A stretch of 64,000 nucleotides of DNA from Colius striatus. Lineage: Eukaryota > Chordata > Aves > Coliiformes > Coliidae. A program made the position numbers and the translations under genes. Shown here piece by piece: positions 1 through 34,134 of this stretch. Location of the stretch: assembly GCF_028858725.1 (NCBI RefSeq), contig NC_084790.1, positions 560,501 through 624,500 of the forward strand, written 5' to 3'. A model generated the notes under the pieces. The model searched no databases. It was not told the origin of the DNA and saw nothing but the letters and a program-made list of their open reading frames with translations. Within the stretch, counting starts at the first letter, position 1. Every line of letters begins with the position of its first letter.

Positions 1-2
1 TG

Positions 3-951
<949 letters not shown>

Positions 952-952
952 G

Positions 953-3900
953 TGAGCGGCTGAGGGCAGGGCGAGGAGCGGGGTCGGTGCCGGTGTGAGC
1001 CCCGGGCTGTGCCGGGTGTTGTGGCGGCGCCGGAGCTGCTGGAGCCCCGCAGCGGGAGCCGGGCGGGGAGCCGCGGGAGGGGGCTCGGGGTGAAGCCCCC
1101 CGGCCGGGGAGCGGCGGCCGGAGCTTGGGCCGGTGGGGGGGCAGGAGTGGGGGGGCGGGTGTCGGCGCGGTCGGACCTTGTTGGGGACTGCGGCGGCTGC
1201 CGCCTGCGGCTGCAACGGGCGGACGGACCTAATTGAAACCCGCGAGGGCTTCAGCTGCCGGCGGCTTTGGGCTGGAGCCCGGCAGCAGCCCCGGGACTGG
1301 GGGGCACTGGGGAGGCAACGAGAGGTGTCTGAAAGCTGCCCCAGGAGGGTTTTGTTTGGCTCCCGGGGGGCATCTGCTGTGGGTTTGTGCCGTCTCCAAA
1401 TTGCTGGGTTACAGGGACCCAGGACTTTGTGATTCTGCTGCTGCGGGGAACCTCAGCTCACTCTGTGGTGCTGCCCCATTGCTGTGTCCCATGACAGCCC
1501 CACGTGTTCCCCCAGCACAGGAGGGAGGCTGAGCCTGGGCAGTTCCTCACCGTTCCCTGTGTCCATGTGCCCACTGAGCTGCAGCCCGGAGCAGCACCAA
1601 GGCTCTGGGTCTCTGCCCCGACGAGGTCTGAGCCTCTCGCAGCAGCAGCTAGGAAGAAAGTATTACTTTTCTTAAACAGAGCCCAATCCCTCTGCTGTGA
1701 AAAGGACAGGGGAGTAAGAGCTGGAAGCTCTGAAGAGGACACAAATGGCTGAGGCCAGAAAAGCTGCTTTTGGGCAAGTCTCCAGGAAATAAAAACGGGT
1801 GTTTAATGTAGTAAGTTAGAACAGTTTATTATCTCTTACTTTAATAACCAGCAGGGGAACAGAAACCCCTGACCAAAGGGGGGGCTTAAACCTCTCACCC
1901 AAATAACCCAACCAAGATTGTAAGCCCTCACCCAAACCGGGTTATTTATGTGAGCTAATGCGAGGGTCACATTCCCAATCCACCCTGCTCGCTCTACCAT
2001 GGGCCGTCCTTTCTGGTGCCAGAGGTGGGTCCATGGTGTGGGCGGGGGATTGGTGTGGGCAGAGCTTCTCGTAACGCCCCGGTGTGAGGGGAAGGGCAGA
2101 AGTGAGTGCGAGGCGCCGGGGCTGCGTGTGAGCCCGGGCGCTGAGCAGTCGGTGTCGGCTGGTGGGAGCGGCTGAGGGCAGGGCGAGGAGCGGGGTCGGT
2201 GCCGGTGTGAGCCCCGGGCTGTGCCGGGTGTTGTGGCGGCGGCGCCGGAGCTGCTGGAGCCCCGCAGCGGGAGCCGGGCGGGGAGCGGCGGGAGGGGGCT
2301 CGGGTTGAAGCCCCCCGGCCGGGGAGCGGCGGCCGGAGCTCGGGCCGGTGGGGGGGCAGGAGTGGGGGGGGGCGGGTGTCGGCGCGGTCGGACCTTGTTG
2401 GGGACTGCGGCGGCTGCCGCCTGCGGCTGCAACGGGCGGACGGACCTGATTGAAACCCGCGGGGCTTCAGCTGCCGGCGGCTTTGGGCTGGAGCCCGGGA
2501 GCAGCCCCGGGACTGCGGGGCACTGGGGAGGCACCGAGAGGTGAGAACCTGAAGTTATTTGCCCATCTTTGGCGTCAAACCTCTGTGAGCACAACGAGCG
2601 CCACAGGGAACCATCGCCCAGGGCAGCACAGAAACAGCCTTTGCCGTGAGCACATCACAAACAGCTTTTTGACTGCAAGCTCCACTCGTCTGCCAGGGGC
2701 TGAGTTTCTGCTGCAGCTGGTCCGTTATTGCCATGTCAGGGACTCTTGTTCCTAAGGTCCACGTTCCCTTCCATGCTGGGGGAAATGCTGCTGTGGGGTT
2801 CATTTCCACACAACCAGGGACTCAACCCCCTCACCCAAATAACCAAATGGGGACTTGAACCCCTCATCAGACCCTGGACTCTTTAGCTGAGCTGCTCAGA
2901 GGCTCTATAATCCCTGCCAGACCTACTCCCTGTTCTCTCTGACATGAGCCATCGGGTCTGTCACACGTGGAACGTCTCGTTCCCTCCGACTTTGTGCTGC
3001 CCGCAGCAGTTGATGCAAACAGCTACAGAGGGTGGGGACTGATCTGAAAAGCGAGCAGCGGGCAGCCCGTGTCCATCGCTGCTGGACTTGTGCAGCTGCA
3101 GCAGCTCCTGTGGGTGCCGCTGTGCTGGGCCCTTCAGCCCCTTGGCTGCACAGTCTGGGTTTGCCCAGCTCTGATTGGTGCTGTTCAGCCCCTTTGCTGC
3201 CTCGTGATTGGCGAAGCCGCGCCGGGCTGTGATTCCACCAGGTCCACAGCACATGCCCTTGGTGCGGCTCTGAGGCTCAACACACACGTTACAGTTGGGG
3301 TCTGTCTGTTACCTGAACAGCCGGCTGGGGAACACGAAGCCCTGAGCAGAGGGGGACTGCAGCTCCTGACCCCGATAAGCCAACAGTGATTTGAAGCCCT
3401 CATCTCCCGCGGGTTTCTCCAGGCTTTCGTGCAGCAGAGCGTGCGGCAATGAGCGGCTCTGCTGTGTGCCTGCGGGGGGCTGCTGCCGGGGCTTTGGAGG
3501 CTGAGAGCTGCCGGGGGCTGGTGCCAGAGGTGGGTTCATGGTGTGGGCGGGGGATTGGTGTGGGCAGAGCTTCTCGTAACGCCCCGGTGTGAGGGGAAGG
3601 GCAGAAGTGAGTGCGAGGCGCCAGGGCTGCGTGTGAGCCCGGGCGCTGAGCAGTCGGTGTCGGCTGGTGGGAGCGGCTGAGGGCAGGGCGAGGAGCGGGG
3701 TCGGTGCCGGTGTGAGCCCCGGGCTGTGCCGGGTGTTGTGGCGGCGCCGGAGCTGCCGGAGCCCCGCAGCGGGAGCCGGGCGGGGAGCGGCGGGAGGGGG
3801 CTCGGGTTGAAGCCCCCCGGCCGGGGAGCAGCGGCCGGAGCTTGGGCCGGAGGGGGGGCAGGAGTGGGGGGGCGGGTGTCGGCGCGGTCGGACCTTGTTG

Positions 3901-6900
3901 GGGACTGCGGCGGCTGCCGCCTGCGGCTGCAACGGGCGGACGGACCTGATTGAAACCCGCGGGGCTTCAGCTGCCGGCGGCTTTGGGCTGGAGCCCGGGA
4001 GCAGCCCTGGGTCAGCGGGACCCGGGGAGGCACCGAGAGGTGTCTGAAAGCTGCCCCAGGAGGATTTTGTTTGGCTCCCGGGGGGCATCCGCTGTAGTTT
4101 GTGCCCTCTCCAAATTGCTGGGTTACAGGGACCCAGGACTTTGTGATTCTGCTGCTGCGGGGAACCTCAGCTCACTCTGTGGTGCTGCCCCATTGCTGTG
4201 TCCCATGGCTGCCCCACGTGTTCCCCCAGCACAGGAGGGAGGCTGAGCCTGGGCAGTTCCTCACCGTTCCCTGTGTCCATGTGCCCACAGACCTGAGCTG
4301 CAGCCCGGAGCAGCACCAAGGCTCTGGGTCTCTGCCCCGACGAGGTCTGAGCCTCTCGCAGCAGCAGCTAGGAAGAAAGTATTACTTTTCTTAAACAGAG
4401 CCCAATCCCTCTGCTGTGAAAAGGACAGGGGAGTAAGAGCTGGAAGCTCTGAAGAGGACACAAATGGCTGAGGCCAGAAAAGCTGCTTTTGGGCAAGTCT
4501 CCAGGAAATAAAAACGGGTGTTTAATGTAGTAAGTTAGAACAGTTTATTATCTCTTACTTTAATAACCAGCAGGGGAACAGAAACCCCTGACCAAAGGGG
4601 GGGCTTAAACGTCTCACCCAAATAACCCAACCAAGATTGTAAGCCCTCAGCCAAACCGGGTTATTTATGTGAGCTAATGCGAGGGTCACATTCCCAGTCC
4701 ACCCTGCTCGCTCTGCCATGGGCCGTCCTTTCTGGTGCCAGAGGTGGGTTCATGGTGTGGGCGGGGGATTGGTGTGGGCAGAGCTTCTCGTAACGCCCCG
4801 GTGTGAGGGGAAGGGCAGAAGTGAGTGCGAGGCGCCAGGGCTGCGTGTGAGCCCGGGCGCTGAGCAGTCGGTGTCGGCTGGTGGGAGCGGCTGAGGGCAG
4901 GGCGAGGAGCGGGGTCGGTGCCGGTGTGAGCCCCGGGCTGTGCCGGGTGTTGTGGCGGCGCCGGAGCTGCCGGAGCCCCGCAGCGGGAGCCGGGCGGGGA
5001 GCGGCGGGAGGGGGCTCGGGTTGAAGCCCCCCGGCCGGGGAGCAGCGGCCGGAGCTTGGGCCGGTGGGGGGGCAGGAGTGGGGGGGCGGGTGTCGGCGCG
5101 GTCGGACCTTGTTGGGGACTGCGGCGGCTGCCGCCTGCGGCTGCAACGGGCGGACGGACCTGATTGAAACCCGCGGGCGCTTCAGCTGCCGGCGGCTTTG
5201 GGCTGGAGCCCGGGAGCAGCCCCGGGACAGGGGGACCCGGGGAGGCACCGAGAGGTGAGAACCTGAAGTTATTTGCCCATCTTTGGCGTCAAACCTCTGT
5301 GAGCACAACGAGTGCCACAGGGAACCATTGCCCAGGGCAGCACAGAAACAGCCTTTGCCGTGAGCACATCACAAACAGCTTTTTGACTACAGCTACAGAG
5401 GGTGGGGACTGATCTGAAAAGCGAGCAGCGGGCAGCCCGTGTCCATCGCTGCTGGCCTTGTGCAGCTGCAGCAGCTCCTGTGGGTGCCGCTGTGCTGGGC
5501 CCTTCCAGCCCCTTGGCTGCACAGTCTGGGTTTGCCCAGCTCTGATTGGTGCTGTTCAGCCCCTTTACTGCCTCGTGATTGGCGAAGCCGCGCCGGGCTG
5601 TGATTCCACCAGGTCCACAGCACATGCCCTTGGTGCGGCTCTGAGGCTCAACACACACGTTACAGTTGGGGTCTGTCTGTTACCTGAACAGCCGGCTGGG
5701 GAACACGAAGCCCTGAGCAGAGGGGGACTGCAGCTCCTGACCCCGATAACCCAGCAGTGATTTGAAGCCCTCATCTCCCGCGGGTTTCTCCAGGCTTTCG
5801 TGCAGCAGAGCTGGCGGCAATGAGCGGCTCTGCTGTGTGCCTGCGGGGGGCTGCTGCCGGGGCTCTGGAGGCTGAGAGCTGCCGGGGGCTGGTGCCAGAG
5901 GTGGGTTCATGGTGTGGGCGGGGGATTGGTGTGGGCAGAGCTTCTCGTAACGCCCCGGTGTGAGGGGAAGGGCAGAAGTGAGTGCGAGGCGCCAGGGCTG
6001 CGTGTGAGCCCGGGCGCTGAGCAGTCGGTGTCGGCTGGTGGGAGCGGCTGAGGGCAGGGCGAGGAGCGGGGTCGGTGCCGGTGTGAGCCCCGGGCTGTGC
6101 CGGGTGTTGTGGCGGCGCCGGAGCTGCTGGAGCCCCGCAGCGGGAGCCGGGCGGGGAGCGGCGGGAGGGGGCTCGGGGTGAAGCCCCCCGGCCGGGGAGC
6201 GGCGGCCGGAGCTCGGGCCGGTGGGGGGGCAGGAGTGGGGGGGCGGGTGTCGGCGCGGTCGGACCTTGTTGGGGACTGCGGCGGCTGCCGCCTGCGGCTG
6301 CAACGGGCGGACGGACCTGATTGAAACCCGCGGGGCTTCAGCTGCCGGCGGCTTTGGGCTGGAGCCCGGGAGCAGCCCTGGGTCAGCGGGACCCGGGGAG
6401 GCACCGAGAGGTGTCTGAAAGCTGCCCCAGGAGGGTTTTGTTTGGCTCCCGGGGGGCATCCGCTGTAGTTTGTGCCCTCTCCAAATTGCTGGGTTACAGG
6501 GACCCAGGACTTTGTGATTCTGCTGCTGCGGGGAACCTCAGCTCACTCTGTGGTGCTGCCCCATTGCTGTGTCCCATGGCTGCCCCACGTGTTCCCCCAG
6601 CACAGGAGGGAGGCTGAGCCTGGGCAGTTCCTCACCGTTCCCTGTGTCCATGTGCCCACAGACCTGAGCTGCAGCCCGGAGCAGCACCAAGGCTCTGGGT
6701 CTCTGCCCCGACGAGGTCTGAGCCTCTCGCAGCAGCAGCTAGGAAGAAAGTATTACTTTTCTTAAACAGAGCCCAATCCCTCTGCTGTGAAAAGGACAGG
6801 GGAGTAAGAGCTGGAAGCTCTGAAGAGGACACAAATGGCTGAGGCCAGAAAAGCTGCTTTTGGGCAAGTCTCCAGGAAATAAAAACGGGTGTTTAATGTA

Positions 6901-9900
6901 GTAAGTTAGAACAGTTTATTATCTCTTACTTTAATAACCAGCAGGGGAACAGAAACCCCTGACCAAAGGGGGGGCTTAAACCTCTCACCCAAATAACCCA
7001 ACCAAGATTGTAAGCCCTCAGCCAAACCGCGTTATTTATGTGAGCTAATGCGAGGGTCACATTCCCAGTCCACCCTGCTCGCTCTGCCATGGGCCGTCCT
7101 TTCTGGTGCCAGAGGTGGGTTCATGGTGTGGGCGGGGGGTTGGTGTGGGCAGAGCTTCTCGTAACGCCCCGGTGTGAGGGGAAGGGCAGAAGTGAGTGCG
7201 AGGCGCCAGGGCTGCGTGTGAGCCCGGGCGCTGAGCAGTCGGTGTCGGCTGGTGGGAGCGGCTGAGGGCAGGGCGAGGAGCGGGGTCGGTGCCGGTGTGA
7301 GCCCCGGGCTGTGCCGGAGCTGCTGGAGCCCCGCAGCGGGAGCCGGGCGGGGAGCGGCGGGAGAGGGCTCGGGGTGAAGCCCCCCGGCCGGGGAGCGGCG
7401 GCCGGAGCTTGGGCCGGTGGGGGGGCAGGAGTGGGGGGGCGGGTGTCGGCGCGGTCGGACCTTGTTGGGGACTGCGGCGGCTGCCGCCTGCGGCTGCAAC
7501 GGGCGGACGGACCTGATTGAAACCCGCGGGGCTTCAGCTGCCGGCGGCTTTGGGCTGGAGCCCGGGAGCAGCCCCGGGACAGGAGGGCACTGGGGAGGCA
7601 CCGAGAGGTGAGAACCTGAAGTTATTTGCCCATCTTTGGCGTCAAACCTCTGTGAGCACAACGAGTGCCACAGGGAACCATTGCCCAGGGCAGCACAGAA
7701 ACAGCCTTTGCCGTGAGCACATCACAAACAGCTTTTTGACTACAGCTACAGAGGGTGGGGACTGATCTGAAAAGCGAGCAGCGGGCAGCCCGTGTCCATC
7801 GCTGCTGGCCTTGTGCAGCTGCAGCAGCTCCTGTGGGTGCCGCTGTGCTGGGCCCTTCCAGCCCCTTGGCTGCACAGTCTGGGTTTGCCCAGCTCTGATT
7901 GGTGCTGTTCAGCCCCTTTGCTGCCTCGTGATTGGCGAAGCCGCGCCGGGCTGTGATTCCACCAGGTCCACAGCACATGCCCTTGGTGCGGCTCTGAGGC
8001 TCAACACACACGTTACAGTTGGGGTCTGTCTGTTACCTGAACAGCCGGCTGGGGAACACGAAGCCCTGAGCAGAGGGGGACTGCAGCTCCTGACCCCGAT
8101 AAGCCAACAGTGATTTGAAGCCCTCATCTCCCGCGGGTTTCTCCAGGCTTTCCTGCAGCAGAGCTGGCGGCAATGAGCGGCTCTGCTGTGTGCCTGCGGG
8201 GGGCTGCTGCCGGGGCTCTGGAGGCTGAGAGCTGCCGGGGGCTGGTGCCAGAGGTGGGTCCATGGTGTGGGCGGGGGATTGGTGTGGGCAGAGCTTCTCG
8301 TAACGCCCCGGTGTGAGGGGAAGGGCAGAAGTGAGTGCGAGGCGCCGGGGCTGCGTGTGAGCCCGGGCGCTGAGCAGTCGGTGTCGGCTGGTGGGAGCGG
8401 CTGAGGGCAGGGCGAGGAGCGGGGTCGGTGCCGGTGTGAGCCCCGGGCTGTGCCGGGTGTTGTGGCGGCGGCGCCGGAGCTGCTGGAGCCCCGCAGCGGG
8501 AGCCGGGCGGGGAGCGGCGGGAGGGGGCTCGGGGTGAAGCCCCCCGGCCGGGGAGCGGCGGCCGGAGCTCGGGCCGGTGGGGGGGCAGGAGTGGGGGGGC
8601 GGGTGTCGGCGCGGTCGGACCTTGTTGGGGACTGCGGCGGCTGCCGCCTGCGGCTGCAACGGGCGGACGGACCTGATTGAAACCCGCGGGGCTTCAGCTG
8701 CCGGCGGCTTTGGGCTGGAGCCCGTGAGCAGCCCCGGGACTGCGGGGCACTGGGGAGGCACCGAGAGGTGAGAACCCGAAGTTATTTGCCCATCTTTGGC
8801 GTCAAACCTCTGTGAGCACAACGAGCGCCACAGGGAACCATCGCCCAGGGCAGCACAGAAACAGCCTTTGCCGTGAGCACGTCAGAAACAGCTTTTTGAC
8901 TGCAAGCTCCACTCGACTGCCAGGGGCTGAGTTTCTGCTGCAGCTGGTCCGTTATTGCCATGTCAGGGACTCTTGTTCCTAAGGTCCACGTTCCCTTCCA
9001 TGCTGGGGGAAATGCTGCTGTGGGGTTCATTTCCACACAACCAGGGACTCAACGCCCTCACCCAAATAACCAAATGGGGACTTGAACCCCTCATCAGACC
9101 CTGGACTCTTTAGCTGAGCTGCTCAGAGGCTCTACAATCCCTGCCAGACCTGCTCCCTGTTCTCTCTGACATGAGCCATCGGGTCTGTCACACGTGGAAC
9201 GTCTCGTTCCCTCCGACTTTGTGCTGCCCACAGCAGTTGATGCAAACAGCTACAGAGGGTGGGGACTGATCTGAAAAGCGAGCAGCGGGCAGCCCGTGTC
9301 CATCGCTGCTGGCCTTGTGCAGCTGCAGCAGCTCCTGTGGGTGCCGCTGTGCTGGGCCCTTCCAGCCCCTTGGCTGCACAGTCTGGGTTTGCCCAGCTCT
9401 GATTGGTGCTGTTCAGCCCCTTTGCTGCCTCGTGATTGGCGAAGCCGCGCCGGGCTGTGATTCCACCAGGTCCACAGCACATGCCCTTGGTGCGGCTCTG
9501 AGGCTCAACACACACGTTACAGTTGGGGTCTGTCTGTTACCTGAACAGCCGGCTGGGGAACACGAAGCCCTGAGCAGAGGGGGGACTGCAGCTCCTGACC
9601 CCGATAAGCCAACAGTGATTTGAAGCCCTCATCTCCCGCGGGTTTCTCCAGGCTTTCGTGCAGCAGAGCTGGCGGCAATGAGCGGCTCTGCTGTGTGCCT
9701 GCGGGGGGCTGCTGCCGGGGCTCTGGAGGCTGAGAGCTGCCGGGGGCTGGTGCCAGAGGTGGGTTCATGGTGTGGGCGGGGGATTGGTGTGGGCAGAGCC
9801 TCTCGTAACGCCCCGGTGTGAGGGGAAGGGCAGAAGTGAGTGCGAGGCGCCAGGGCTGCGTGTGAGCCCGGGCGCTGAGCAGTCGGTGTCGGCTGGTGGG

Positions 9901-12690
9901 AGCGGCTGAGGGCAGGGCGAGGAGCGGGGTCGGTGCCGGTGTGAGCCCCGGGCTGTGCCGGGTGTTGTGGCGGCGCCGGAGCTGCCGGAGCCCCGCAGCG
10001 GGAGCCGGGCGGGGAGCGGCGGGAGGGGGCTCGGGGTGAAGCCCCCCGGCCGGGGAGCAGCGGCCGGAGCTTGGGCCGGAGGGGGGGCAGGAGTGGGGGG
10101 GCGGGTGTCGGCGCGGTCGGACCTTGTTGGGGACTGCGGCGGCTGCCGCCTGCGGCTGCAACGGGCGGACGGACCTGATTGAAACCCGCGGGGCTTCAGC
10201 TGCCGGCGGCTTTGGGCTGGAGCCCGGGGGCAGCCCCCGGGACAGGGGGACCCGGGGAGGCACCGAGAGGTGTCTGAAAGCTGCCCCAGGAGGGTTTTGT
10301 TTGGCTCCCGGGGGGCATCCGCTGTAGTTTGTGCCCTCTCCAAATTGCTGGGTTACAGGGACCCAGGACTTTGTGATTCTGCTGCTGCGGGGAACCTCAG
10401 CTCACTCTGTGGTGCTGCCCCATTGCTGTGTCCCATGGCTGCCCCACGTGTTCCCCCAGCACAGGAGGGAGGCTGAGCCTGGGCAGTTCCTCACCGTTCC
10501 CTGTGTCCATGTGCCCACAGACCTGAGCTGCAGCCCGGAGCAGCACCAAGGCTCTGGGTCTCTGCCCCGACGAGGTCTGAGCCTCTCGCAGCAGCAGCTA
10601 GGAAGAAAGTATTACTTTTCTTAAACAGAGCCCAATCCCTCTGCTGTGAAAAGGACAGGGGAGTAAGAGCTGGAAGCTCTGAAGAGGACACAAATGGCTG
10701 AGGCCAGAAAAGCTGCTTTTGGGCAAGTCTCCAGGAAATAAAAACGGGTGTTTAATGTAGTAAGTTAGAACAGTTTATTATCTCTTACTTTAATAACCAG
10801 CAGGGGAACAGAAACCCCTGACCAAAGGGGGGGCTTAAACGTCTCACCCAAATAACCCAACCAAGATTGTAAGCCCTCAGCCAAACCGGGTTATTTATGT
10901 GAGCTAATGCGAGGGTCACATTCCCAGTCCACCCTGCTCGCTCTGCCATGGGCCGTCCTTTCTGGTGCCAGAGGTGGGTTCATGGTGTGGGCGGGGGATT
11001 GGTGTGGGCAGAGCTTCTCGTAACGCCCCGGTGTGAGGGGAAGGGCAGAAGTGAGTGCGAGGCGCCAGGGCTGCGTGTGAGCCCGGGCGCTGAGCAGTCG
11101 GTGTCGGCTGGTGGGAGCGGCTGAGGGCAGGGCGAGGAGCGGGGTCGGTGCCGGTGTGAGCCCCGGGCTGTGCCGGGTGTTGTGGCGGCGCCGGAGCTGC
11201 CGGAGCCCCGCAGCGGGAGCCGGGCGGGGAGCGGCGGGAGAGGGCTCGGGGTGAAGCCCCCCGGCCGGGGAGCGGCGGCCGGAGCTTGGGCCGGTGGGGG
11301 GGCAGGAGTGGGGGGGCGGGTGTCGGCGCGGTCGGACCTTGTTGGGGACTGCGGCGGCTGCCGCCTGCGGCTGCAACGGGCGGACGGACCTGATTGAAAC
11401 CCGCGGGCGCTTCAGCTGCCGGCGGCTTTGGGCTGGAGCCCGGGAGCAGCCCCGGGACAGGGGGACCCGGGGAGGCACCGAGAGGTGAGAACCTGAAGTT
11501 ATTTGCCCATCTTTGGCGTCAAACCTCTGTGAGCACAACGAGTGCCACAGGGAACCATTGCCCAGGGCAGCACAGAAACAGCCTTTGCCGTGAGCACATC
11601 ACAAACAGCTTTTTGACTACAGCTACAGAGGGTGGGGACTGATCTGAAAAGCGAGCAGCGGGCAGCCCGTGTCCATCGCTGCTGGCCTTGTGCAGCTGCA
11701 GCAGCTCCTGTGGGTGCCGCTGTGCTGGGCCCTTCAGCCCCTTGGCTGCACAGTCTGGGTTTGCCCAGCTCTGATTGGTGCTGTTCAGCCCCTTTGCTGC
11801 CTCGTGATTGGCGAAGCCGCGCCGGGCTGTGATTCCACCAGGTCCACAGCACATGCCCTTGGTGCGGCTCTGAGGCTCAACACACACGTTACAGTTGGGG
11901 TCTGTCTGTTACCTGAACAGCCGGCTGGGGAACACGAAGCCCTGAGCAGAGGGGGACTGCAGCTCCTGACCCCGATAACCCAGCAGTGATTTGAAGCCCT
12001 CATCTCCCGCGGGTTTCTCCAGGCTTTCCTGCAGCAGAGCTGGCGGCAATGAGCGGCTCTGCTGTGTGCCTGCGGGGGGCTGCTGCCGGGGCTCTGGAGG
12101 CTGAGAGCTGCCGGGGGCTGGTGCCAGAGGTGGGTCCATGGTGTGGGCGGGGGATTGGTGTGGGCAGAGCTTCTCGTAACGTCCCGGTGTGAGGGGAAGG
12201 GCAGAAGTGAGTGCGAGGCGCCAGGGCTGCGTGTGAGCCCGGGCGCTGGGAGCTGTCGGTGTCGGCTGGTGGGAGCGGCTGAGGGCAGGGCGAGGAGCGG
12301 GGTCGGTGCCGGTGTGAGCCCCGGGCTGTGCCGGGTGTTGTGGCGGCGCCGGAGCTGCCGGAGCCCCGCAGCGGGAGCCGGGCGGGGAGCGGCGGGAGGG
12401 GGCTCGGGGTGAAGCCCCCCGGCCGGGGAGCGGCGGCCGGAGCTTGGGCCGGTGGGGGGGCAGGAGTGGGGGGGCGGGTGTCGGCGCGGTCGGACCTTGT
12501 TGGGGACTGCGGCGGCTGCCGCCTGCGGCTGCAACGGGCGGACGGACCTGATTGAAACCCGCGGGGCTTCAGCTGCCGGCGGCTTTGGGCTGGAGCCCGG
12601 GAGCAGCCCCGGGACTGCGGGGCACTGGGGAGGCACCGAGAGGTGAGAACCTGAAGTTATTTGCCCATCTTTGGCGTCAAACCTCTGTGA
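953..12690. repeat. Tandem array of ten GC-rich CpG-island cores with two alternating linker types
   Basis: A ~520 bp core recurs ten times with very high identity by eye. Approximate copies: 953–1322 (5'-truncated), 2015–2540, 3521–4041, 4735–5255, 5891–6412, 7106–7608, 8244–8768, 9748–10270, 10965–11485, 12120–12643. Each core is CpG-dense, carries GC boxes (GGGGGGCGGG) and ends ...GGAGGCACCGAGAG. Type A linkers (~692 bp; after copies 1, 3, 5, 8) start GTGTCTGAAAGC and contain AATAAA. Type B linkers start GTGAGAAC: long (~980 bp) after copies 2 and 7, short (~635 bp) after copies 4, 6, 9. A stub follows copy 10. Period is 1.14–1.5 kb, and an A+B pair is 2.37–2.7 kb. The array fuses at its left edge to the donor of the kinase exon ending at 951 and decays into unique DNA near 12690. 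It resembles no transposon I recognise. High identity implies recent expansion or gene conversion. Confidence 0.93.
3174..3558 (+). promoter_or_regulatory. Inverted CCAAT boxes in type B linker leading into a CpG core (representative copy)
   Basis: Three ATTGG motifs (inverted CCAAT, candidate NF-Y sites) lie at 3174–3178, 3207–3211 and 3554–3558. The first two are 33 bp apart and the third is at the start of the next CpG core, with GC boxes following. The same layout recurs in the other complete B linkers (for example from about 5540, 7895, 9400 and 11770). The third motif is kept at the head of the cores in general. This looks like a TATA-less CpG promoter, but promoter activity is an inference. 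Confidence 0.4.
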
Positions 12691-13175
12691 GGAGGAGGAA
12701 GGTGGGAGTGCTGCAGCTACAGGGGAGGCTGGAGCAATGCCAGCGTGGCCGTGCCACCCCAGCTCTGGAGCTCTTCGAGCAGTGGGGAGAGGAGTGGGGA
12801 GTGATGGGGATGAAGCCTCCACTAGCAGCTCCCACCGTGACCCAGCCAGGGCTCCTGTCCCAGGGGAGCTCTGGAGTCCCATAAGAGGAGGTCGCTGTGG
12901 TGTGTCAGAGCTGGAACCTGCTCTGCCTGGGGCTCACTGGTCTCTTCCCTTCTTGGAAACAGCATATGCAAATTGAGAAGGAACTTAATTAGGAAGGTGG
13001 TGCGTGGCGCTCCGGGCTGGAGCACAGGGAGCCCCTTTGAACCATGTGAATGTCTCTCTCCATCACTTGCCAGGCTGGAGGTGATTCCTCTCAGGGTTCA
13101 GCCATGGCTTGTTCACAGCCAGGCAGACATCTCCTGCCAGAGCTCACCTGCTTTCTCTTCCTTCCGTCTCTTCAG

Positions 13176-13414
13176 TGGCAGAAGTGGATTCTTCCTTAGA
13201 GACAAACAATCTAAACCGTTCCATATTCTATCCCTGGTGTTTGTTTTCCCTTCCCAGAGGAAGGAAGGGAAGCTCCTCTACCCTTCTCTTGATGTTCACA
13301 CACATCATGTCCCATTTTTTTACCCAATATCTGCTCCGTGTTTTCCTCGTCCCACAGACTCTGAACTCACAGCCCCCTTGGGAAGCAGGCTGCATGCCTC
13401 CAAGCTGCAGATGA
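13176..13414 (+). CDS. Candidate terminal exon of the MYLK-like gene
   Basis: A strong acceptor, with a long pyrimidine tract ending CTCTTCAG at 13175, precedes an open frame. In phase with the exon ending at 951 it reads VAEVDSSLETNNLNRS and continues to a TGA at 13412–13414. The join would give ...SEARDEE|VAEVDSSLE. The frame match and the following AATAAA at 14257 support it, but I recognise no domain, and the second half (IFYPWCLFSLP...) does not look protein-like. A competing acceptor at 13257 would give a tail of about eleven residues ending at 13292. If either is right, the repeat array is intronic. Confidence 0.3.
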
Positions 13415-14665
13415 TAAGCAAACACCAAGTTACATATAATCAATCCCTTGATGAGCTATTTACCATGTGACATTACCAAAATATTTCTGTTTGGGAACTA
13501 TGTTTATCTTCATCTGTTTTCCAAACTCCTGGCAGCCCTGAAAATCCACGTCCCAGGCCTCCAGACATGAGCTTTCTTGCTGTGCTCCTGTGTTTTATGC
13601 TGTGAAAACTGATTTGCCTACAGAAGCAGCTCATTTACTGACAGAAAGCACAGGTTTCTTCTCCTTCCTCTGCTTCCCATGGCTTAACACATCAAAATGT
13701 GTGCTTGAGACATGAATGAAGAGTGGAGTTATACCTGGAATTCATTACAGCCACTGAGAAATTCAGCAGTGCTGAAAATAGAAATCCAATCTCAGCAGCT
13801 CAGAGGCAAAGGAAGATTTTGACCTTTCCATCTAGGAAGATTTTTGAGTGAATCTTCACTTCAGCCACATGACTTCAGAGTAAGTCCTGAAATCATCAGA
13901 ACTCCTCCAGCAAGGCAGAAAGGGAGAGCAAAGCCTTTGGGAGGATTCACTCCCTGTCTCGGGTGCCCCTCAGTCCAGCTCCTGGCAGGTAGCTGAGGTG
14001 GGCTCAGCACTTCAAACACCTTCAAGCTTCTGGAGCTTAATCCTTCAGTGCCAAGTTCTGGTGATAATCTTGGGTTCATTCTGGGCTGCACAACGCAGGC
14101 CTAGGGATGCTTTATTTGGGTGAGGAAATATGGCCTGGGTAGCTCTAAGGGCAAAAAGTAGGGGAGGGGGGATTTTGGGGACCTGCACATTCAGGGGCAA
14201 AATCCCCACCAAGAGTGTGATGTTCTGCCCTAGAGTGGAATGGAGTTCACTGAGAAAATAAACCTCAGCCTTCCATCAGATGCTGAAATGTCTGATGAAA
14301 CAAAGAGAGTTCAGGTGCAAAACTGAGCTTCAGAGAACCAGAACAAACCCCAGTGTGGGTGACCCCGATTCGGGTGCCGCCCGTGGCTCCTCGCTGGCCT
14401 CCCGACCCCTGACACGGGGAGAGGGACGTGGCATCGCTCCCAGGGCAGCTGGGGCTGTGGGGGCAGCTTTGGAGGCAGCTGCCGCTCGCCTGGCTGGGGC
14501 TGGGGCTGGGAGAGGGTGGCAGAACGGGTCTGGCGTGTTCCCCCGGTCCCTGCGGGACACCGACACCGCGGCGGGTCCTGTCAGACAGGAGGTGCCACGA
14601 GAGCCAGAGGGACACGGTGACGCTGGGGACTGAGCCCAGGGCTGAGCGGGGGCTTCCAGAGCGTG
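13415..14665. other. Non-coding spacer downstream of the kinase gene
   Basis: Mixed-composition unique DNA without a convincing exon. It contains the candidate poly(A) signal listed separately and could be 3' UTR plus intergenic DNA. An octamer-like ATGCAAAT lies just upstream, at about 12964. Confidence 0.4.
14257..14262 (+). terminator. Candidate poly(A) signal AATAAA
   Basis: AATAAA on the + strand, between the MYLK-like exons and FMNL1. It is the first + strand canonical signal I noticed downstream of the candidate terminal exon, apart from those inside the A linkers. Assignment to the kinase gene is inference. Confidence 0.35.
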
Positions 14666-15310
14666 ACAGGTCACAGAATCCCACAGTGGTGGAGGCTGGA
14701 AGGGCCTTGTAGAGCTGCTCCAGCCCCAGCCCCTGCTCAAGCAGCTTCCCCTCGCTCGGGAACGTGTCCAGGTGGGTTTGGGAACCTCCTGAGAAGGAGC
14801 CTCCACACCCTCCCTGGGCAGCCTGGGCCAGGGCTCCCTCACCTCAGCACCAAAGGGGCTTCTTCTCCTGTGCCTGTTACCCTTTGTCCTGGCACTGGCC
14901 ACCACAGAAGAAAAGTGCCCTGAGCATCTTGGTGCCCTGTGCTGGCCTCTCTCCAGCAGTTCCCTGTCCCTCTGCAGCTGGGGAGCCCAGAACTGGACAC
15001 AGGACTCCAGATGAGTTTATTATCCCCCAGCACTGCCAGGTCTCTCTCCTGGAGCTGCTCTCCAGCAGGTCACCCCCAGCCTGTCCTGGTGCAGGGGGTT
15101 GTTCCCCCCCAGCTGCAGGACTCTGCCCTTGCCCTTGTTGAACCTCAGCGGGTTCTTCCCTCTCCAACCCTCAGATTCTGGGGATGCCAGGATCCCACCT
15201 GGGCCCATCCTCCACCCATCCCTCAGCAGATGTTTCCTCAAATCTGAAATTTCAGCAAATTTTGCCAAATCCCAGGAGCTCCCAGCCCTGCTGTCACACA
15301 CTTGAGGTCC
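14666..15310 (-). mobile_element. CR1 LINE fragment (3' part, 5'-truncated)
   Basis: On the + strand the block begins with the reverse complement of a CR1 3' end (TCACAGAATCCCACAGTGG) and runs through typical CR1 blocks: CTCAAGCAGCTTCCC, GGGCAGCCTGGGCCAGGGC, AGAACTGGACACAGGACTCC and CAGGGGGTTGTTCC. The element is therefore on the minus strand, with its 3' end near 14666 and truncation near 15310. It is visibly diverged and lacks segments. CR1 is the dominant avian non-LTR retrotransposon. Confidence 0.85.
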
Positions 15311-15429
15311 CCAGGGGTGCGGTGAGTTTGTTCGGCCTCAGCTTTCCCTCCCACAGTGGCTGAGATGGGGAAAGAAGGGAAAAGGAGACGAGGGGAGGGA
15401 GCCCAACACCTCCTGGCTCCCACCTGCCC

Positions 15430-15862
15430 CTGATAAAAGAGAAAATAGAATCAAATTCTGAGGTAAAATGTTAAAGTAACTTAAATTCTGAAACAAGGGG
15501 GGAAATGAGGTTAAAAGGGGCTGAAAAGGAAAGAATTGATACAAGTTTAGGTTAAAAATTAAAGTGAAATAAAGCAATAATGGTAAAATTAAAGGGGAAG
15601 AAGAAATAAGCAATGGCCTGAAGGAAAAATGGAACCAAGTTAAGAGCCAGCAGAGATACTGAAAGGATAAAATAAACAGGGAAATGATATTTAAAGTAAT
15701 GAATGAAATACAGTGTAAGTTTAAAACAGAAAATGGTTAAAGCAATGAACGGGAGGCGAGAAAATGATGAACAGAGAAACTGCAACTGAGGGTGATGGAG
15801 AGAAGGGGGAAAATACATTCACGAGTTCTTTGGAACGAAAGTCAGTTTAAAATGACGAAAAC
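15430..15862. repeat. C-poor, purine-rich block with degenerate GTTAAAG motifs
   Basis: About 430 bp with a strong A/G bias on the + strand and very few C, sitting between the CR1 copy and the FMNL1 CpG island. Motifs of the form GGTTAAA / TTTAAAGTAATGAA recur many times at irregular spacing, suggesting a degenerate short tandem repeat. No gene is evident; the hydrophobic minus-strand frame here is a by-product of T-rich composition. Confidence 0.5.
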
Positions 15863-15879
15863 GAGCCCAAATGCAGGGA

Positions 15880-16320
15880 GCTGAAATTAACCGGGTGAGG
15901 GCAGCGGGGAGAAAGTGCCCCGGGGGGGCGGGCGGCGGGGCCGGGGGCGGGCGCAGGGCGGGGGGAGGCGGCCACGGCGCGATAACGCCCCGCAGAAGTT
16001 GCAGCCGCCGAGGAGCAGCCTCGGGGAAGAGTCGTGTCCGTCCCCCCCGCCATGGGTAACGCGGCCGGGGGCCTGGACGGGGCGGCCGCGGGGCGGGAGA
16101 GCCGCGAGGCGCGGCTGCCGCTGCCCCCGCCGAGCCCCGCCGCCGCGCCGCCGCCGCCCCGGCAGCCCATGCCCGATGCCGCCGAGCTGGAGGAGCGCTT
16201 CGGCCGCGTCCTGGTGAGCGGGGGCTGCGGGGGGCTGCGGGGGCACCGCGGCTGCGGGGGGCTGCCCCGAGACCCGGCCCGGGCTCTGCCTTACGCCCAT
16301 TAGATTTCGGTCAGGATGAC
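15880..16320 (+). promoter_or_regulatory. FMNL1 CpG-island promoter and first exon
   Basis: Abrupt switch to CpG-dense sequence with several GC boxes (GGGGGGCGGGCGG, GGGGGCGGGCGC) and no TATA box, immediately before the FMNL1 ATG at 16052. The composition change marks a TATA-less CpG promoter. The start site cannot be placed exactly, but 15900–16000 is likely. Confidence 0.7.
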
Positions 16321-19300
16321 GGCGTATTGTAACGGTCGCTATTTGGTCATCGTGGGTTCATTAACGACCATCGTTACTAATTTCCCCTCTCTCGCCCCAT
16401 TCCTCGCGCGGATGCTCGACCCTGCCGGTGCCGTTACCCCCTCGCCGCGCTCTCCCGTTGCGGAGGGCTGGGATCCAGCCCCGCACTTTTGGGGTGTCCC
16501 CGTCTGTCCCCGCCATGGCGGGGGCCGGCAGCGCGCCGCAGCGGCTGGCGAAGGGCTCGCCTCCTCCTCCTCCTCTTCATCCTCCGGTGCCCGGGGACCG
16601 CGGCGGCACGGGCGCTGCCGGGCGCGCTGCCGCGGGCTGGCAGCTGCGGCTCGGGGCTGCGGGAGATCCGGGGGCTGCGGGAGATCCGGGGGCTGCGGGA
16701 GATCCGCTGCCGCCCGCTGCCTCCGTCCTTGAGCGGGGCCGCTCCGCGCTGACCTTCGCACCGCGCGGCCGGGACACGCCGCATCCCCCTCCCTGCCCTC
16801 CCTCAAAGCGCTCCGCCGCGGAAGGTCAGGCTGGGAGCGGGCAGAAAGCGAAGCCCCTGCTCGAGCTGCTTGAAGCTTTTTTATCGCCCGGCGTTTCTAG
16901 GAGGGTTATTTGAGGCCGAGCATCGCAGCCGGAGCTGCTGCTGCTCCTCAGCCGCCGGCAGCATCGGCTCTGGCTCGGCGCAGGGCTGTGCACGGCGGGG
17001 ACCTGCACGGGACCCCCCACGCCCCGGGGATGGGGCTTTGCCGTGGGACACCCGTCAGGGGAGGCGCAGGAGGACTGAGCTGTGCTGGCAGAGGGGACGG
17101 GTGGCCGGGGACCTTGGGGTGCTTCCGCTGCTGCTGCGGGGCCTCAGGAAACGCTTTCAGCCGGCCTGTGTGGTGGCAGCTGGGAAACCCAGAGCTGAGA
17201 AACCATCAAAACAGGGGGAAATGCTGCTGCAGGTCCCCGGCAGCACCCACAGCCCCTGCAGCCCGAGGGAGGGGCCTTGCCCCGGAGCCAGGGGGCACGC
17301 AGGGGGCTGCGCTTGCCTGTCAGGAACCGGGCATCTTGTGAAAGCCTCTGTCCCAATCTCGCTTCCTCCTTTCGCAGGTTCCCTTCCCCTTCCCGGGGCG
17401 GGGGCGCAGCGGGACCCCTGTGGGGACACGGACGGGGAGCTCCCTCAACCACCTTCCTTGGCTTGAGGTTCCCTTTTCCCACCTCCCCGGCTCGTGGGCT
17501 GGGATGGAGCAGGAGGTGGTGGGTTGGGAATGCCCCCGCTGGGGCAGCATCCGGACCTGGCGCGTTGCCACAGTTACCGTGATGCCACGAACGCACCTCA
17601 GGGCCAACCAGTTTTAGGTTGGACACCCCGGACTGGGGGAGCTGGTGGAGCAAAGGCCGTCAGAAAGGCCAACAGCAGAGCCCGGGGGATCCCAGCTGCC
17701 ACTGGCAAGGGGCTGGATAATCCCCCCACGTGCCCAGAAGTGGGGAATTTAGTTTTACTCTCCACAAGCTGGCTTCTTCCCAGCTAGGGCACTGGGGCAG
17801 GTGCCACTTTGGCAGCGCCATGGGAGGGTTGTCCCAGTGCCAGGCGGTTTGGGATGTGCCGAGGTGGCTTTTGGGGAGGGAGCAGAGGAGCGAGAGCGTT
17901 GCTGCTGCTGCAGTGGCCACGTGCAGAGGCTCCTGCGCACACCAGGAGGGATCTTTCCCCTCTTGGCACGTTGAAAGGTGGTAACTGGGGACGTGGAGGC
18001 AAAATTGTGAGGCCAGAGCGTTCTGGAGGAGAAGCTGAAAAGGGCTGGGGGTGTTCGGCTGGGGCTGAGGGAGCCGGTGGCTGCTCCAGCAGGAGGTTTT
18101 GCCAAGGAGGGCTTTGCTGCTGCTTCTCCTGGGACCTGGAGGACAGAGAGCACAGCAGACGTCACGGCTGCAGATGTTTGCAGATGTGCCGTTGGCCTCA
18201 GCCCTGGGCCCAGGCACCAGTGAGCCCCGGCACCAGCGGTGGGTGCTCGACTTGCTGCTGGATCCAGCCCCGGCGTGGGGGGCAGGTCTGGGGGGGCTGT
18301 GCCGGGGTGTCCCCAGGGGGATGTGTGCCCTGGGCAGGAGGGGAAGTGCCTGTGAGCTGAGAGCTGCAGGAGGTAGCCAGATCTGTCCCTGGCTGTATGA
18401 GGAATGTGTCCTGGTGCAGGGACCCCCCTGCCCTCCTGAATCCAGCCCCGGGTGATGTTGAGGTGATGTGCTGGAGGGAGTGCAGTGGCTGGATGGGGCT
18501 TGTGTCCACCCCCCCGTAAGAGCTGCTTTGCCTCCCCCCACTCACAGGTTTAGGTGTAGGATGGGGGGGGTCTTGGTGTCACCTTGGGGGGTCCCAGCCA
18601 GCTGCATCCTGGTGCTGGGTGTTGGGAGATGACACTGTGGGCTCTGTGGCACCTCGTGTCCCCGGAGGGGGGTGGGGGATGTTTGGTGGCCTCTGTGCAG
18701 TGATGCTGTGACACTGCTGGAGGGGAGGGGCGGGGGAAGCCCCACGCAAGCTGCTGGAGGCAAATCCCTGTGGCCCCTCCATCCTTGTCACCCCAAGGAA
18801 AAAGAGGAGGAGGACCAAGGCCTGCCTCTGTCACTTCCAAGGTGCTGGGCCACTGCCCTGCCCCACATCCCCCACCCAGCCCCACATCACCCGCTCTGGC
18901 AGGAAACGAGAACCAGTTTGTTCGCGCCACCGGCTGCCGTCAGGGACCACAGCGGAGCCGCTTCCTCCCTCCCCGGCACCACGTGCGCGCCCAGGGCTGA
19001 GCTGGGATGTGGCCACCACCCAGTTTGTACCCCAGGCGTGCCACATCCTGCCACCCAGCCCAGCCCTGCCTGTGGGGGCAGAGCCACCTCCGTAGGGACC
19101 CCCGGCATCCCCCTGCCCGCCTGCTGGGAACCCACCGCGGCTCCCGTCCCACCCGTGACGCTCGCTCCCGGTGTCTCCAGGTCCCACACGTGGTCACTTC
19201 TCCAGTGACAGCACAAGGGGTGAGGGACATAAGCTGGAACACAAACAGTTCTACTTAAGCACAGGGAGAAGCTCCTTTGGTGCTGAGGGGAGGGAGCCCT

Positions 19301-22300: not shown

Positions 22301-25300
22301 CCCCGTGCCGTGTCCTGCCTCGCTGCCCCCTGGCTGTGCCGCGCTTGCAGAGGGGCTGGGCAGGGAGACACAGACCTGCTCCTTAACAAATGAGTCCCTG
22401 TGGCTGATTTGGGGGCACAAAGCCCCATCCCCACGTGGGATAAGCCCTGCTGGGAGCTGGGCTGGCTCAGCATCCCCAGCCCAGCCCCACGGCCCTCGGG
22501 GACCACCCGGGGCTGAGAGAAAACAGGCGATGGGTGAGATTGTGGGGCAGCGAATCGTACCCACCCCGGTTTTAAACCAGGCTGGGGGAACGGGCCTGTG
22601 CCCCCTCGCAGCCGGTCCCGCTGGCTCTTGCTTGGCGCCCGCCCCGCAGCCCCCTCCTAACCCCGCTCTTCTCTTGCACGCTGCCGGGGATGCGCTGACG
22701 GTAGGTGCCGGGCCGTGGCACCGGCGGGACAGGGACACCCCGGTGGGCTTGGGGACGGTGCTGCCGGGCATCCCCGGCGAGGGGGGCGGGGGGTCCCGGG
22801 GGACACCCACCTGCAGCCACCCAGGAGCCGTAACGTGGCAGCTCAGGGGTCTGGGGGTCCCTCCCTTCCTGCAGCAGTTCCAGGGCAGTCAGGGTGTCCC
22901 CCCCAGCCCCAGGGACAGGTCAGGAGCGAGGTGGCACCGGCGGGGGTCCCAGCCCTTGTCTCCCCCCAAGCCCGGGTGTGCCAGGGGCGAGGCGGGAGCC
23001 CCGATTCTCCGTCCTGTCCTGCAGGCTCTAACGTGCCTCCAGCTGCTGCCTCTCGAACCGGCACCTCCACACCCTCCTCCGCCACGTCCACCCCGCTGTC
23101 CCCTGCGGGTCCAGGTCACCCGGCAGCTCCTGCCCGCCCCGGTGAGCCTCCGCGACCACCCGTGCGCACGAGGGCGACCCGGACACCCCCCCGCCCCCCC
23201 CCCCCATGCACTTGCACATGACACAGGGGTCTCTCTCTCTCTCTCTCTGTCTCTGTCTCTCTCCTGCGGGGATGCAGCTGCCCGGGTTCCCTGGTGTGTG
23301 TCCCCCCGCCCCAGCCTCGCAGCCCCCCGCTTTGCCGTGCCCCCCACCCCGCCTCGGCCCCGCTCAGCCGCCCTCTGCCCCCCAGGCTGAACCCATCGCA
23401 CAGCAGGAAGGCGCTGAGGAACTCCCGTCTCGTCAGCCAGAAGGACGACGTCCACCTCTGCATCATGTGTCTCCGCGCCATCATGAACTACCAGGTGGGA
23501 GAGGGCAGCGGCTTGGGGGGGCACAACTGGGGCTCCCCTAAAAGCTCCCTGTGGAGCCGTCTCTTGGGGTGGGACCCGTTCTCCAGCCCCGTGGCTGTGG
23601 GGATGTGGCACAGGGATGGCTCAAAGCCCTGGAGCAGCCCCAGGCTGGGGGGGCTGTGTGACCCCATTAATGCTCCTTTTACCCCAAAGTCTGGCTTCAG
23701 CCTGGTCATGAACCACCCAGCCTGCGTCAACGAGATCACCCTCAGCCTCAACAACAGGAATGCCAGGTGGGACCCTTCCCTTGTCCCCGACCCCCTCGTC
23801 CTCTCCCCCAGCTGGTCGCCCTGACCCCCTCAGCCCCTGTATCTCTGCAGGACCAAGGCGCTGGTGCTGGAGCTGCTGGCTGCTGTCTGTCTGGTCCGGG
23901 GAGGCCACGACATCATCCTGGCTGCCTTTGATAACTTCAAGGAGGTGAGTCCCCATGCTGGCACCCCTGCTGCAGCTGGGATCGTGCCTCAGTTTCCCCG
24001 AGTCAGGCAAACCCCTGTATCGTTGGGGCACCCTCCAACCTAGAAATGCCCACCCCATGACTCACCCCAGCCGGTGGGCTTGATGTCCCTGTGCCAGTGC
24101 ATGTGCCCAGGGCCATGTCACAACTGGAGCAGGCCTTAAGCAACACCCAGCAGGGCTAGGATGGTGTCACCAACGGATGCCTCCTGCCCTGCCACCCCCT
24201 GGGTGCCCAGCGTGGCCGTGTCCCTCCTGGGCCTCAGCCCCCTGCTCCCACCCCAGGTCTGCGGGGAGAAGAACCGCTTCGAGAAGCTGATGGAGTATTT
24301 CCGAAACGAGGACACCAACATTGACTTCATGGTGAGCAGCTGGCAGGGCTGGGGCTCTGCTGTCCCCAGGGCACCGTGTCCCCAGGGGCTGCTGGGCCAC
24401 CTCACTGTGCCAGGGCAGCGTGTCCCCAGGGGCTGCTGAGCCACCTCACTGTGCCAGGGCAGCGTGTCTCCAGGGGCTGCTGGGCCACCTCACTGTGCCA
24501 GGGCAGCGTGTCCCAGGGGCTGCTGGGCCACCTCACTGTGCCAGGGCAGCATGTCCCCAGGGGCTGCTGGGCCACCTCACTGTGCCAGGGCAGCGTGTCC
24601 CCAGGGGCTGCTGAGCCACCTCACTGTGCCAGGGCAGCGTGTCCCCAGGGGCTGCTGAGCCACCTCACTGTCCCCTGGGCACCGTGTCCCCAGGGGCTGC
24701 TGAGCCACCTCACTGTCCCCTGGGCACCGTGTCCCCAGGGGCTGCTGAGCCACCTCACTGTGCCAGGGCAGCATGTCCCCAGGGGCTGCTGGGCCACCTC
24801 ACTGTGCCAGGGCAGCGTGTCCCCAGGGGCTGCTGAGCCACCTCACTGTGCCAGGGCAGCATGTCCCCAGGGGCTGCTGGGCCACCTCACTGTCCCCTGG
24901 GCACCGTGTCCCCAGGGGCTGCTGAGCCACCTCACTGTGCCAGGGCAGCGTGTCCCCAGGGGCTGCTGGGCCACCTCACTGTGCCAGGGCAGCGTGTCCC
25001 CAGGGGCTGCTGAGCCACCTCACTGTGCCAGGGCAGCGTGTCCCCAGGGGCTGCTGAGCCACCTCACTGTGCCAGGGCAGCGTGTCTCCAGGGGCTGCTG
25101 GGCCACCTCACTGTGCCAGGGCAGCGTGTCCCCAGGGGCTGCTGGGCCACCTCACTGTGCCAGGGCAGCGTGTCCCCAGGGGCTGCTGGGCCACCTCACT
25201 GTGCCAGGGCAGCGTGTCCCCAGGGGCTGCTGGGCCACCTCACTGTGCCAGGGCAGCGTGTCCCCAGGGGCTGCTGGGCCACCTCACTGTGCCAGGGCAG

Positions 25301-32841: not shown

Positions 32842-34134
32842 CTCCTTTCCCCTGTGCAAATCCAGCTCCACAATGTTCATTTCCAGAAGTCACAGTGTGA
32901 TAAAGTGTCATCTGCTGGGTACAAACTGTCTGTCCCATGGCCTCCCCCAGCACTGCCCAGTCCCCCCACCAGCAGCTTCCTGCTGCTTTGCACAGTGACC
33001 CTTCCACACCCTGGGAAAGCAGCTACAGGCCAAGAGCCCTCTGTGTCTGGGCCTCTGGGATTCCTCCCTACCCTGAATGGGGTTCTGCCTCAACACCCTG
33101 GTCTGTTAGGCACAGCTTCAGCCAAGTCTTACGGTACATAATGAACAGTTCTGACTTTCTGTCAGTGCTGCAGCACAGGCCTTGGGCTGGAAGCTGCACT
33201 TTTGATGCCTGTCACTGCAACAACGACCAGGCACATCAAGAGGAAATTGTCTTGGTGGCAGGAGAGAGCTGAGGTGGTAAAAGCCTGAGAGTGCCAGAGT
33301 CCCTCCTGAGAGGAGAACGTGTGTCTGGGCAGGGCCCAGAGCCCTGCTGCTGGGCTGAGGGGTTTGGACAGCACAGACAGGCTGCAAGAGGCTAATGCTG
33401 ATGTGAGAGAGGAGCAGGGGGACAGCATCTGCCTGGTTCTGGCAGTGGGGGCTGACTGCTCCCCTTCCCTTTGCACTGCTGCCCCCAGATGCAGGTTAAT
33501 GCTACGGACGAAGCATGAGGCTGGGGAGCCCTGGCAAGGGAGAGAGAGCTGCTGCCTCCTGCACAGCTGGAGCTGAGCACCAGCCAAGGAGCTGGGCACT
33601 CAAGCCTCGATGCAGACAACAGCCAAAGCCTCAGCCCAGGGGAAGGGCCCAGGCTGTTTCACACTGACACATCATCCCCAGCCCTGCCTCACAGCCACAC
33701 AGCACCAACGGGCTCTTAGAAACAGCCAACAGATTTCTCCCCTTCCCTTCCTTTCCCCCCCTGCCATGGGGGAGACGCCAGGCGTGGGGTTTGGCTGGTG
33801 CACTGGACTCAGCAGCTCCTGGGAGCCCTGAGGAGGCATTTTGCTCCCTCCTGCTCCAGAGCCTAGAATTCTTAGCAGTTTATGGCATCTGAAAAGACCA
33901 AGTCGAGACAGCCTGGCCCTTCCCCCCACTCCTTCCTGGCAGGGACTGCATCATGTGTTAACTGCTCACTACAATGTCTCTTAAGGTGGTGTTTGAGATA
34001 CAATTAGGTGCCTATTTGGGACAGGGGATTAAGTGCTTTAGAACAAAAAGTGCTACAAAAACTATGCCCACAGTGCTGAGCAGGTGCAGTTCTTCCACAG
34101 GAGTTCTACTTTTTAACAGATGTCTGCTCAGTGC

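Follow-up and report, generated by a model that had tools for sequence, protein, structure and literature searches.

Our analysis of a tandem repeat in Colius striatus indicates that it very likely arose within the final two introns of an avian MYLK-like kinase gene, that two copies of the locus carry different numbers of units, and that its GC-rich cores and one of its linker types (B) are related to a sequence family found mostly near contig ends. The window, that is, the whole stretch of DNA analysed, is 64,000 nucleotides long and lies on the contig that we call C40; positions given without a contig name are positions in this window. A second, longer copy of the array lies on contig C39.

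Architecture of the array

A similarity search revealed ten cores in an array at 954–12691 (11,738 bp in total), consistent with the first-pass annotation, which had described a ten-copy, nearly identical array with edges at 953 and 12690. Nine of the cores are full-length (508–531 bp each, about 525 bp), and in pairwise comparison the window cores are 96.0–99.6% identical; kilobase-long identity between copies is far above chance. The cores (c) are separated by linkers of type A, type B and a shortened B (b); the A linkers are listed further below with the exon that they carry.

954–12691, + strand: whole array, c A c B c A c b c A c b c B c A c b c, then a 46-bp B stub
954–1331, + strand: core 1, partial, without ~152 bp at its start; begins at the donor of exon 861–951
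2013–2543, + strand: core 2
2544–3517, + strand: linker B1 (full), with relatives near contig ends
3518–4042, + strand: core 3
4732–5257, + strand: core 4
5258–5888, + strand: linker b2 (B with internal deletion)
5889–6413, + strand: core 5
7103–7610, + strand: core 6
7611–8241, + strand: linker b3
8242–8770, + strand: core 7
8771–9746, + strand: linker B4 (full)
9747–10272, + strand: core 8
10962–11487, + strand: core 9
11488–12119, + strand: linker b5
12120–12645, + strand: core 10
12646–12691, + strand: B stub, 46 bp, abutting the ancestral last exon

Linker A has four copies in the window (681–689 bp) and linker B two full copies (974–976 bp), while b, with three copies, is B minus an internal deletion of ~343 bp. 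The two linker classes and the higher-order structure that had been proposed are thus both present, and the linker order A B A b A b B A b departs from alternation at one place, where b is followed by B, because one block has been duplicated: 2013–6413 and 8242–12645 are 98.98% identical over 4407 aligned bases. Linkers A and B have a 112-bp module in common (score 85 versus a maximum of 42 in 100 shuffles).

In line with the first-pass annotation, the cores are CpG-island-like, with GC of 0.75–0.77, a CpG observed/expected ratio of 0.79–0.85 and a GC skew of +0.29 to +0.35 in the window. By the same ratio linker A is CpG-poor (0.28–0.30) and linker B intermediate (0.43–0.45, with 0.42 in the stub). 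We evaluated CpG decay at majority-rule CpGs as a sign of germline methylation and found no significant contrast, with variable sites at 3 of 106 CpG versus 23 of 420 other positions in cores and at 2 of 80 versus 22 of 1240 in linkers. G-quadruplex motifs on the + strand occur in all ten window cores and all 20 cores on C39, and in none of the nine window linkers.

By eye, the linkers appeared tRNA-like, and we rejected a tRNA-derived origin when ARAGORN found no tRNA and Rfam gave no match at gathering score (two snoRNA matches only, at chance level, E 3.8). The B-box motif was not enriched, with 6 sites at ≤1 mismatch versus 7.3 expected, two of them perfect. The array is absent from the listing of Tandem Repeats Finder, in which the longest reported period is 500. 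Elsewhere in the window are a 44-bp minisatellite (24366–25368, ~23 copies, 95% match) and a 29-bp minisatellite (34125–36529, ~87 copies).

Host gene and ancestral exon order

The array stands between exons of a gene whose last conserved exons before the array end just upstream of core 1.

130–253, 331–483, 670–790 and 861–951, + strand: last four conserved MYLK-like kinase exons before the array, donor GT at 952–953; ends and splice sites by eye
12689–12976, + strand: ancestral last coding exon (EEEEGGS...), placed by tblastn with relatives' tails; frame open to TGA at 12974–12976
16052–16213, + strand: FMNL1 first coding exon, next gene downstream, outside the array; phmmer match to PDB 4ydh, Formin-like protein 1, E 0.001; exon end by eye

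The best named protein matches of exons 130–951 are avian MYLK proteins, and 163 window exon residues form an exact stretch of P0130 (MYLK smooth muscle isoform X1, Colius striatus). In many relatives, the residues after ...DEE read DLGCSPEEDQASGSLPQRGPSFSELLTDQ and then EEEEGGST.... We compared window positions 1–16500 by tblastn with 32 distinct C-terminal tails taken from 120 listed matches (29 named bird proteins, two of which are isoforms from one falcon, together with P0002, P0142 and P0151). Linkers A2, A3 and A4 were matched by 28 of the 32 tails at E≤0.01 and by 30 up to E 1, with a best match of 6e-8 (Pogoniulus), and linker A1 by 30 tails, 26 of them at E≤0.01. The right flank at 12689 was matched by 17 of 32 tails at E≤0.01 and by 28 up to E 1, the best being P0138 from Balearica (E 4e-18, spanning 12689–12847). 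Because the first 16.5 kb also contains chance-level matches at other places (at E≤0.01 for 11 of the 32 tails, best 6e-4), the weaker right-flank matches are not independent proof. Three of the 32 tails align across the end of exon 861–951.

Reading phase is consistent with this placement, as the exon end at 951 leaves one base that completes D at the A acceptor, and models with a retained intron extend the homology into the intron before the A exon (Otus, E 3.6e-10; Phasianus, 6.5e-9; Ficedula, 7.7e-8). From the tail matches, the phase and the intron homology together, it follows that the array spans from the donor of exon 861–951 to the start of the last exon. Judged by these comparisons, the ancestral penultimate exon is within unit A and the ancestral last exon is at the right edge of the array, at 12689. 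Since the Ficedula gene model reads ~60 residues between the two ancestral exons, it suggests that the ancestral intron would have been short and without a core. The first-pass annotation had called the repeat gene-proximal; proximity to a gene stands, but the array is not merely beside one, as it lies inside the MYLK-like gene and linker A carries a coding exon of it.

Two other readings of the array edges were considered. That the core is the start of the ancestral intron is not supported: four bird models read through the donor as DEE-GDG, unlike the core. The other is a transposon with a target-site duplication, for which GAGGAAGGTG at both edges (by eye) had been the sign; it was rejected because, in relatives, the right copy starts one ancestral exon and the left copy ends another.

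The kinase and what we take to be its calmodulin-binding region are left intact by the array. By eye, the last exon (12689–12976) is read in a frame other than the one used in most relatives and looks like the models from Haliaeetus and Balearica, because of which the C-terminal tail looks weakly constrained.

The captured exon and a predicted alternative 3′ end

Each A linker carries the segment of the ancestral penultimate exon and, deeper in the linker, a predicted alternative terminal exon.

1332–2012, + strand: linker A1, captured exon segment with the ancestral acceptor lost (5-bp deletion); alternative terminal exon coding at 1680–1717; AATAAA at 1788
4043–4731, + strand: linker A2, with the ancestral exon beginning at 4291 (acceptor CCCACAG); coding part of the alternative terminal exon at 4399–4436; AATAAA at 4507
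6414–7102, + strand: linker A3, with the ancestral exon beginning at 6662; coding part of the alternative terminal exon at 6770–6807; AATAAA at 6878
10273–10961, + strand: linker A4, with the ancestral exon beginning at 10521; coding part of the alternative terminal exon at 10629–10666; AATAAA at 10737

The ancestral acceptor CCCACAG is kept in three of four window and four of seven C39 copies of A, and the remaining copies share one 5-bp deletion. After the ancestral exon in A we found no convincing donor among the GT candidates (TGG/GTCTCT, GAG/GTCTGA and AAA/GTATTA). The C-terminus of P0130 is a 12-residue tail, EPNPSAVKRTGE, and splicing from 951 to the acceptor TTACTTTTCTTAAACAG, deeper in A, yields this very ending. 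Both the tail and AATAAA are present in 11 of 11 A copies across the two contigs; the C7 relative does not preserve AATAAA. For the gene, the most likely effect of the array is a shifted 3′ end, with the predicted splice from 951 into the alternative terminal exon of A replacing the longer ancestral tail. We infer the shortened C-terminus from one annotated protein, possibly itself a computed model, and from splice signals, by which any A copy can serve as the source of the putative terminal exon.

A 400-bp stretch of A that includes the exon, the alternative tail and AATAAA has zero substitutions among the four window copies (permutation P 0.00085), and both recent homogenisation and constraint fit this uniformity. 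The stretch bears on whether the repeat matters to the protein at all. The array could be a neutral satellite in a loosely constrained gene tail, recombination debris with no protein effect of consequence; consistent with this, the C-termini of relatives vary widely in sequence and length past the calmodulin-binding region, the last exon of the window has, by eye, a frame unlike most relatives, and the ancestral acceptor is deleted in one of four window and three of seven C39 copies. The substitution-free stretch argues the other way, although recent homogenisation would also yield it and the 5-bp deletion of A1 falls inside it. We regard such neutrality as a real possibility, though less likely than not.

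A second array on contig C39

The locus on C39 possesses 20 cores, 7 A, 8 B and 4 b linkers in 25,470 bp, versus 10 cores, 4 A, 2 B and 3 b in 11,738 bp for the window locus on C40, the two lengths being those of two contigs of a single assembly. The flanks are nearly the same, with 100% identity over 953 bp on the left and 99.65% over 7452 bp on the right, and both contigs have the same two array edges and a different interior order. A tree built from all 30 cores has just two inner branches that clear both support cut-offs, and these unite the left-edge pair and the right-edge pair of the two contigs. Among the C39 cores, 13 of 20 fall into four groups of identical sequences, and the array there repeats in higher-order units of ~3.86 kb. 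Groups of identical cores together with spared edges are the pattern expected from unequal exchange. With tandem units on the kilobase scale and 10 versus 20 cores at the two locus copies, the macrosatellite-like layout proposed earlier is borne out.

The second locus also speaks to assembly error, which the first-pass annotation had asked to be checked. GC-rich repeats are difficult assembly targets, and a false tandem expansion could give an array of similar copies; given the structured differences between copies, and the 20 cores that the second contig carries between identical edges in a different interior order, we consider an artefact highly improbable. Core and B sequence is moreover encoded by P0122, a Colius protein annotated separately, although the record behind it could represent the same chromosome in another version.

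C40 measures 89.0 Mb and C39 42.3 Mb. C40 starts with 2500 N followed by telomeric repeat, C39 ends in telomeric repeat, and the arrays lie 561 kb (C40) and 552 kb (C39) from those telomeric ends. Sequence at 800 kb on C40 is 98.0–99.7% identical to C39, and sequence at 300 kb and 1.5 Mb had no clear counterpart in the C39 pieces compared (10 and 20 kb), save for one 83% match of 237 bp for the 1.5-Mb piece. The shared end could represent Z and W with a pseudoautosomal region, allelic contigs or paralogous places. Farther along, C40:1447432–2338184 holds a very dense local repeat of ~600 bp (10,179 first-look candidates, of which the best 40 were scored), and none of the 44 listed matches of this repeat lies on C39.

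A dispersed family near contig ends

Genome searches with the core and with B, in each of which the best 40 candidates were scored so that all counts are lower bounds, placed core matches in at least 42 places, 10 and 20 of them in the two arrays. A core fragment at 487 kb on C40 is 93–94% identical to the array core and has a mirror copy on C39, and at least 10 further core pieces (73–86%) lie on C7 (both ends), C6 and C3. Outside the arrays, core or B relatives occupy at least 16 loci (C3 start, C3 end, C4, C6, C7 start, C7 end, C8, C9, C10, C15, C16, C17, C23, C27, C30 and the single C40/C39 locus), 15 of them less than 0.5 Mb from a contig end, the lone exception being C9 at 3.5 Mb. Here "near the end" means near a contig end, telomeric repeat having been examined at the C40 and C39 ends. 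Eleven of the 16 loci are known from B pieces alone, of ~110–210 bp. Core pieces occur at five loci, and at each of these the core comes after the end of B; at C7 (end) and C6 it is also followed by the start of B, which is the order of the array itself; C17 has two B pieces in an order unlike the array. C7:58731001–58749000, ~0.39 Mb from the C7 end, holds a diverged, partly inverted tandem cluster of the core/B family. The first-pass annotation could assign the repeat to no known family; within this same genome, at least, the core and B do have diverged relatives, near many contig ends. A 53-base core piece had no exact match in viral contigs.

Linker A behaves differently from this family, being confined to the two arrays (11 copies) bar one 66-bp piece with two matches on C7, which is what single-copy gene sequence would be expected to show. 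Its near-confinement to the arrays therefore implies that A joins gene sequence (the exon segment) to family sequence, from about base 426 onward.

At the 487-kb locus of C40, 74 kb from the array, the core piece is 93–94% identical to the array and the adjacent B piece only 84%, a mismatch that we take as a sign of recent exchange with the array. Because core and B differ in identity there, exchange between loci blurs the history of the family. The surrounding C40:483501–491500, which holds this single core fragment, carries a kinesin-8-like gene on the minus strand (best PDB match KIF18A).

P0122, which carries the Colius annotation "proline-rich protein HaeIII subfamily 1-like", corresponds to core plus B read on the minus strand and is likely a spurious gene model. 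A minus-strand coding function of the core was rejected, given that P0122 is the one match at E≤0.01 among those listed for 7990 scored candidates.

Relatives outside the array also inform a functional alternative, in which the repeat would be a tandem promoter array, each core being a CpG-island promoter and first exon, with CCAAT boxes ahead of it, a G-rich sense strand and a donor at its end, and starting transcripts within the gene. GC skew is positive in all 30 cores (+0.29 to +0.36), the core end before B is donor-like (GAG/GTGAGA, with GAG/GTGAGT in two C7 relatives), and two ATTGG boxes stand 311 and 344 bp before core 3, which B precedes; two C7 cores have such boxes at distances of 333 and 364 bp. 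Before A, however, the core ends in GAG/GTGTCT, and among the relatives compared no such donor is found in the second C7 core or in the C6, C7-start and single C40 copies. Nor is there ATTGG or CCAAT in the 500 bp before the core in the C6, C7-start, C3 and single C40 copies. Core 2, which A precedes, has the motif in the other orientation only (at −330 and −38); in the second C7 core it occurs once in each orientation. Judged on these motifs, a promoter reading would hold for the B-type units of the window and the two C7 copies and would fail for the other relatives compared, and overall we think such promoter function unlikely.

Proposed origin

We favor growth of the array within the gene from family fragments. 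An insertion or exchange would have carried repeat sequence into the gene near the chromosome end, leaving the penultimate exon flanked by family fragments. These fragments may then have recombined unequally and so multiplied the units, type A with the exon and type B without it. The process behind the growth was presumably unequal crossing-over or gene conversion, and the order of events is likewise our reconstruction; the G-rich, quadruplex-prone cores may promote breaks and misalignment. As a consequence the 3′ end would have moved, with the exon ending at 951 joined to the alternative terminal exon of A, which would supply EPNPSAVKRTGE and then AATAAA.

One could go further and see the core as a subtelomeric promoter-like repeat that colonised the kinase gene and made its 3′ end a copy-number-variable module. 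Each unit would then bring a CpG-island promoter and a donor, type A also a terminal exon with a polyadenylation signal, and array length would set the 3′ ends and internal transcripts. We deem this extension quite unlikely.

Comparison with known systems

Among the papers listed in literature searches, none deals with this locus. D4Z4 is a subtelomeric, GC-rich macrosatellite with kilobase-scale units and variable copy number, linked to transcript 3′-end signals, and its units carry the DUX4 reading frame; type A units of the array instead contain a host-gene exon and are themselves located within the host gene. D4Z4 is an analogy of layout only. Subtelomeric duplicons are related sequences common to many chromosome ends, with exchange between places. 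The array resembles them in that core/B relatives lie near many contig ends with signs of exchange between loci, and differs in that a single member expanded, inside a gene, to an ordered array that took in an exon.

The closest published phenomenon is the sequence or exon stuttering of chicken dot-chromosome genes (Hron et al. 2026, PMC12954441). As described there, stuttering has three main features, namely repetitive introns, exon sequence in the repeat and length variation; its blocks are tens to hundreds of bases long, less organised and generally of local origin; it occurs mostly on dot chromosomes (46 of 236 introns lie off them); and no case of blocks crossing to adjacent exons is reported as seen (PMC12954441). 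The MYLK-like array is similar in being a GC-rich tandem expansion in introns of a bird gene, filling the space from exon 861–951 to 12689, and in having copied an exon with its adjacent splice site (the acceptor in three of four window and four of seven C39 A copies). A length difference is seen between two contigs of one assembly, which may be alleles, Z and W copies or paralogous places. The array is dissimilar in its units, which are 1.2–1.5 kb long and ordered, with a 3.86-kb higher order on C39; in engulfing a whole ancestral exon in unit A; in its contigs of 89.0 and 42.3 Mb, which are not dot chromosomes; and in its core and B, to which related sequences lie near many contig ends, although the exon-bearing part of A is local. 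Because block size and order, exon isolation, dot location and local origin all differ from stuttering so described, we interpret the array as working like stuttering without being a member of it.

Implications

The array represents an exon-engulfing expansion within a bird gene off the dot chromosomes, tied to a family that lies mostly near contig ends. Caution is warranted for gene models at such places, since the truncated MYLK tail and the "proline-rich protein" may be products of the repeat. If C40 and C39 were Z and W, the array would differ twofold between sex chromosomes in a shared pseudoautosomal end. The locus also offers a before-and-after comparison, in which relatives give the ancestral exon order and the two contigs give two lengths between the same edges, and with it both the mechanism of growth and the effect on the 3′ end of the gene become directly testable.
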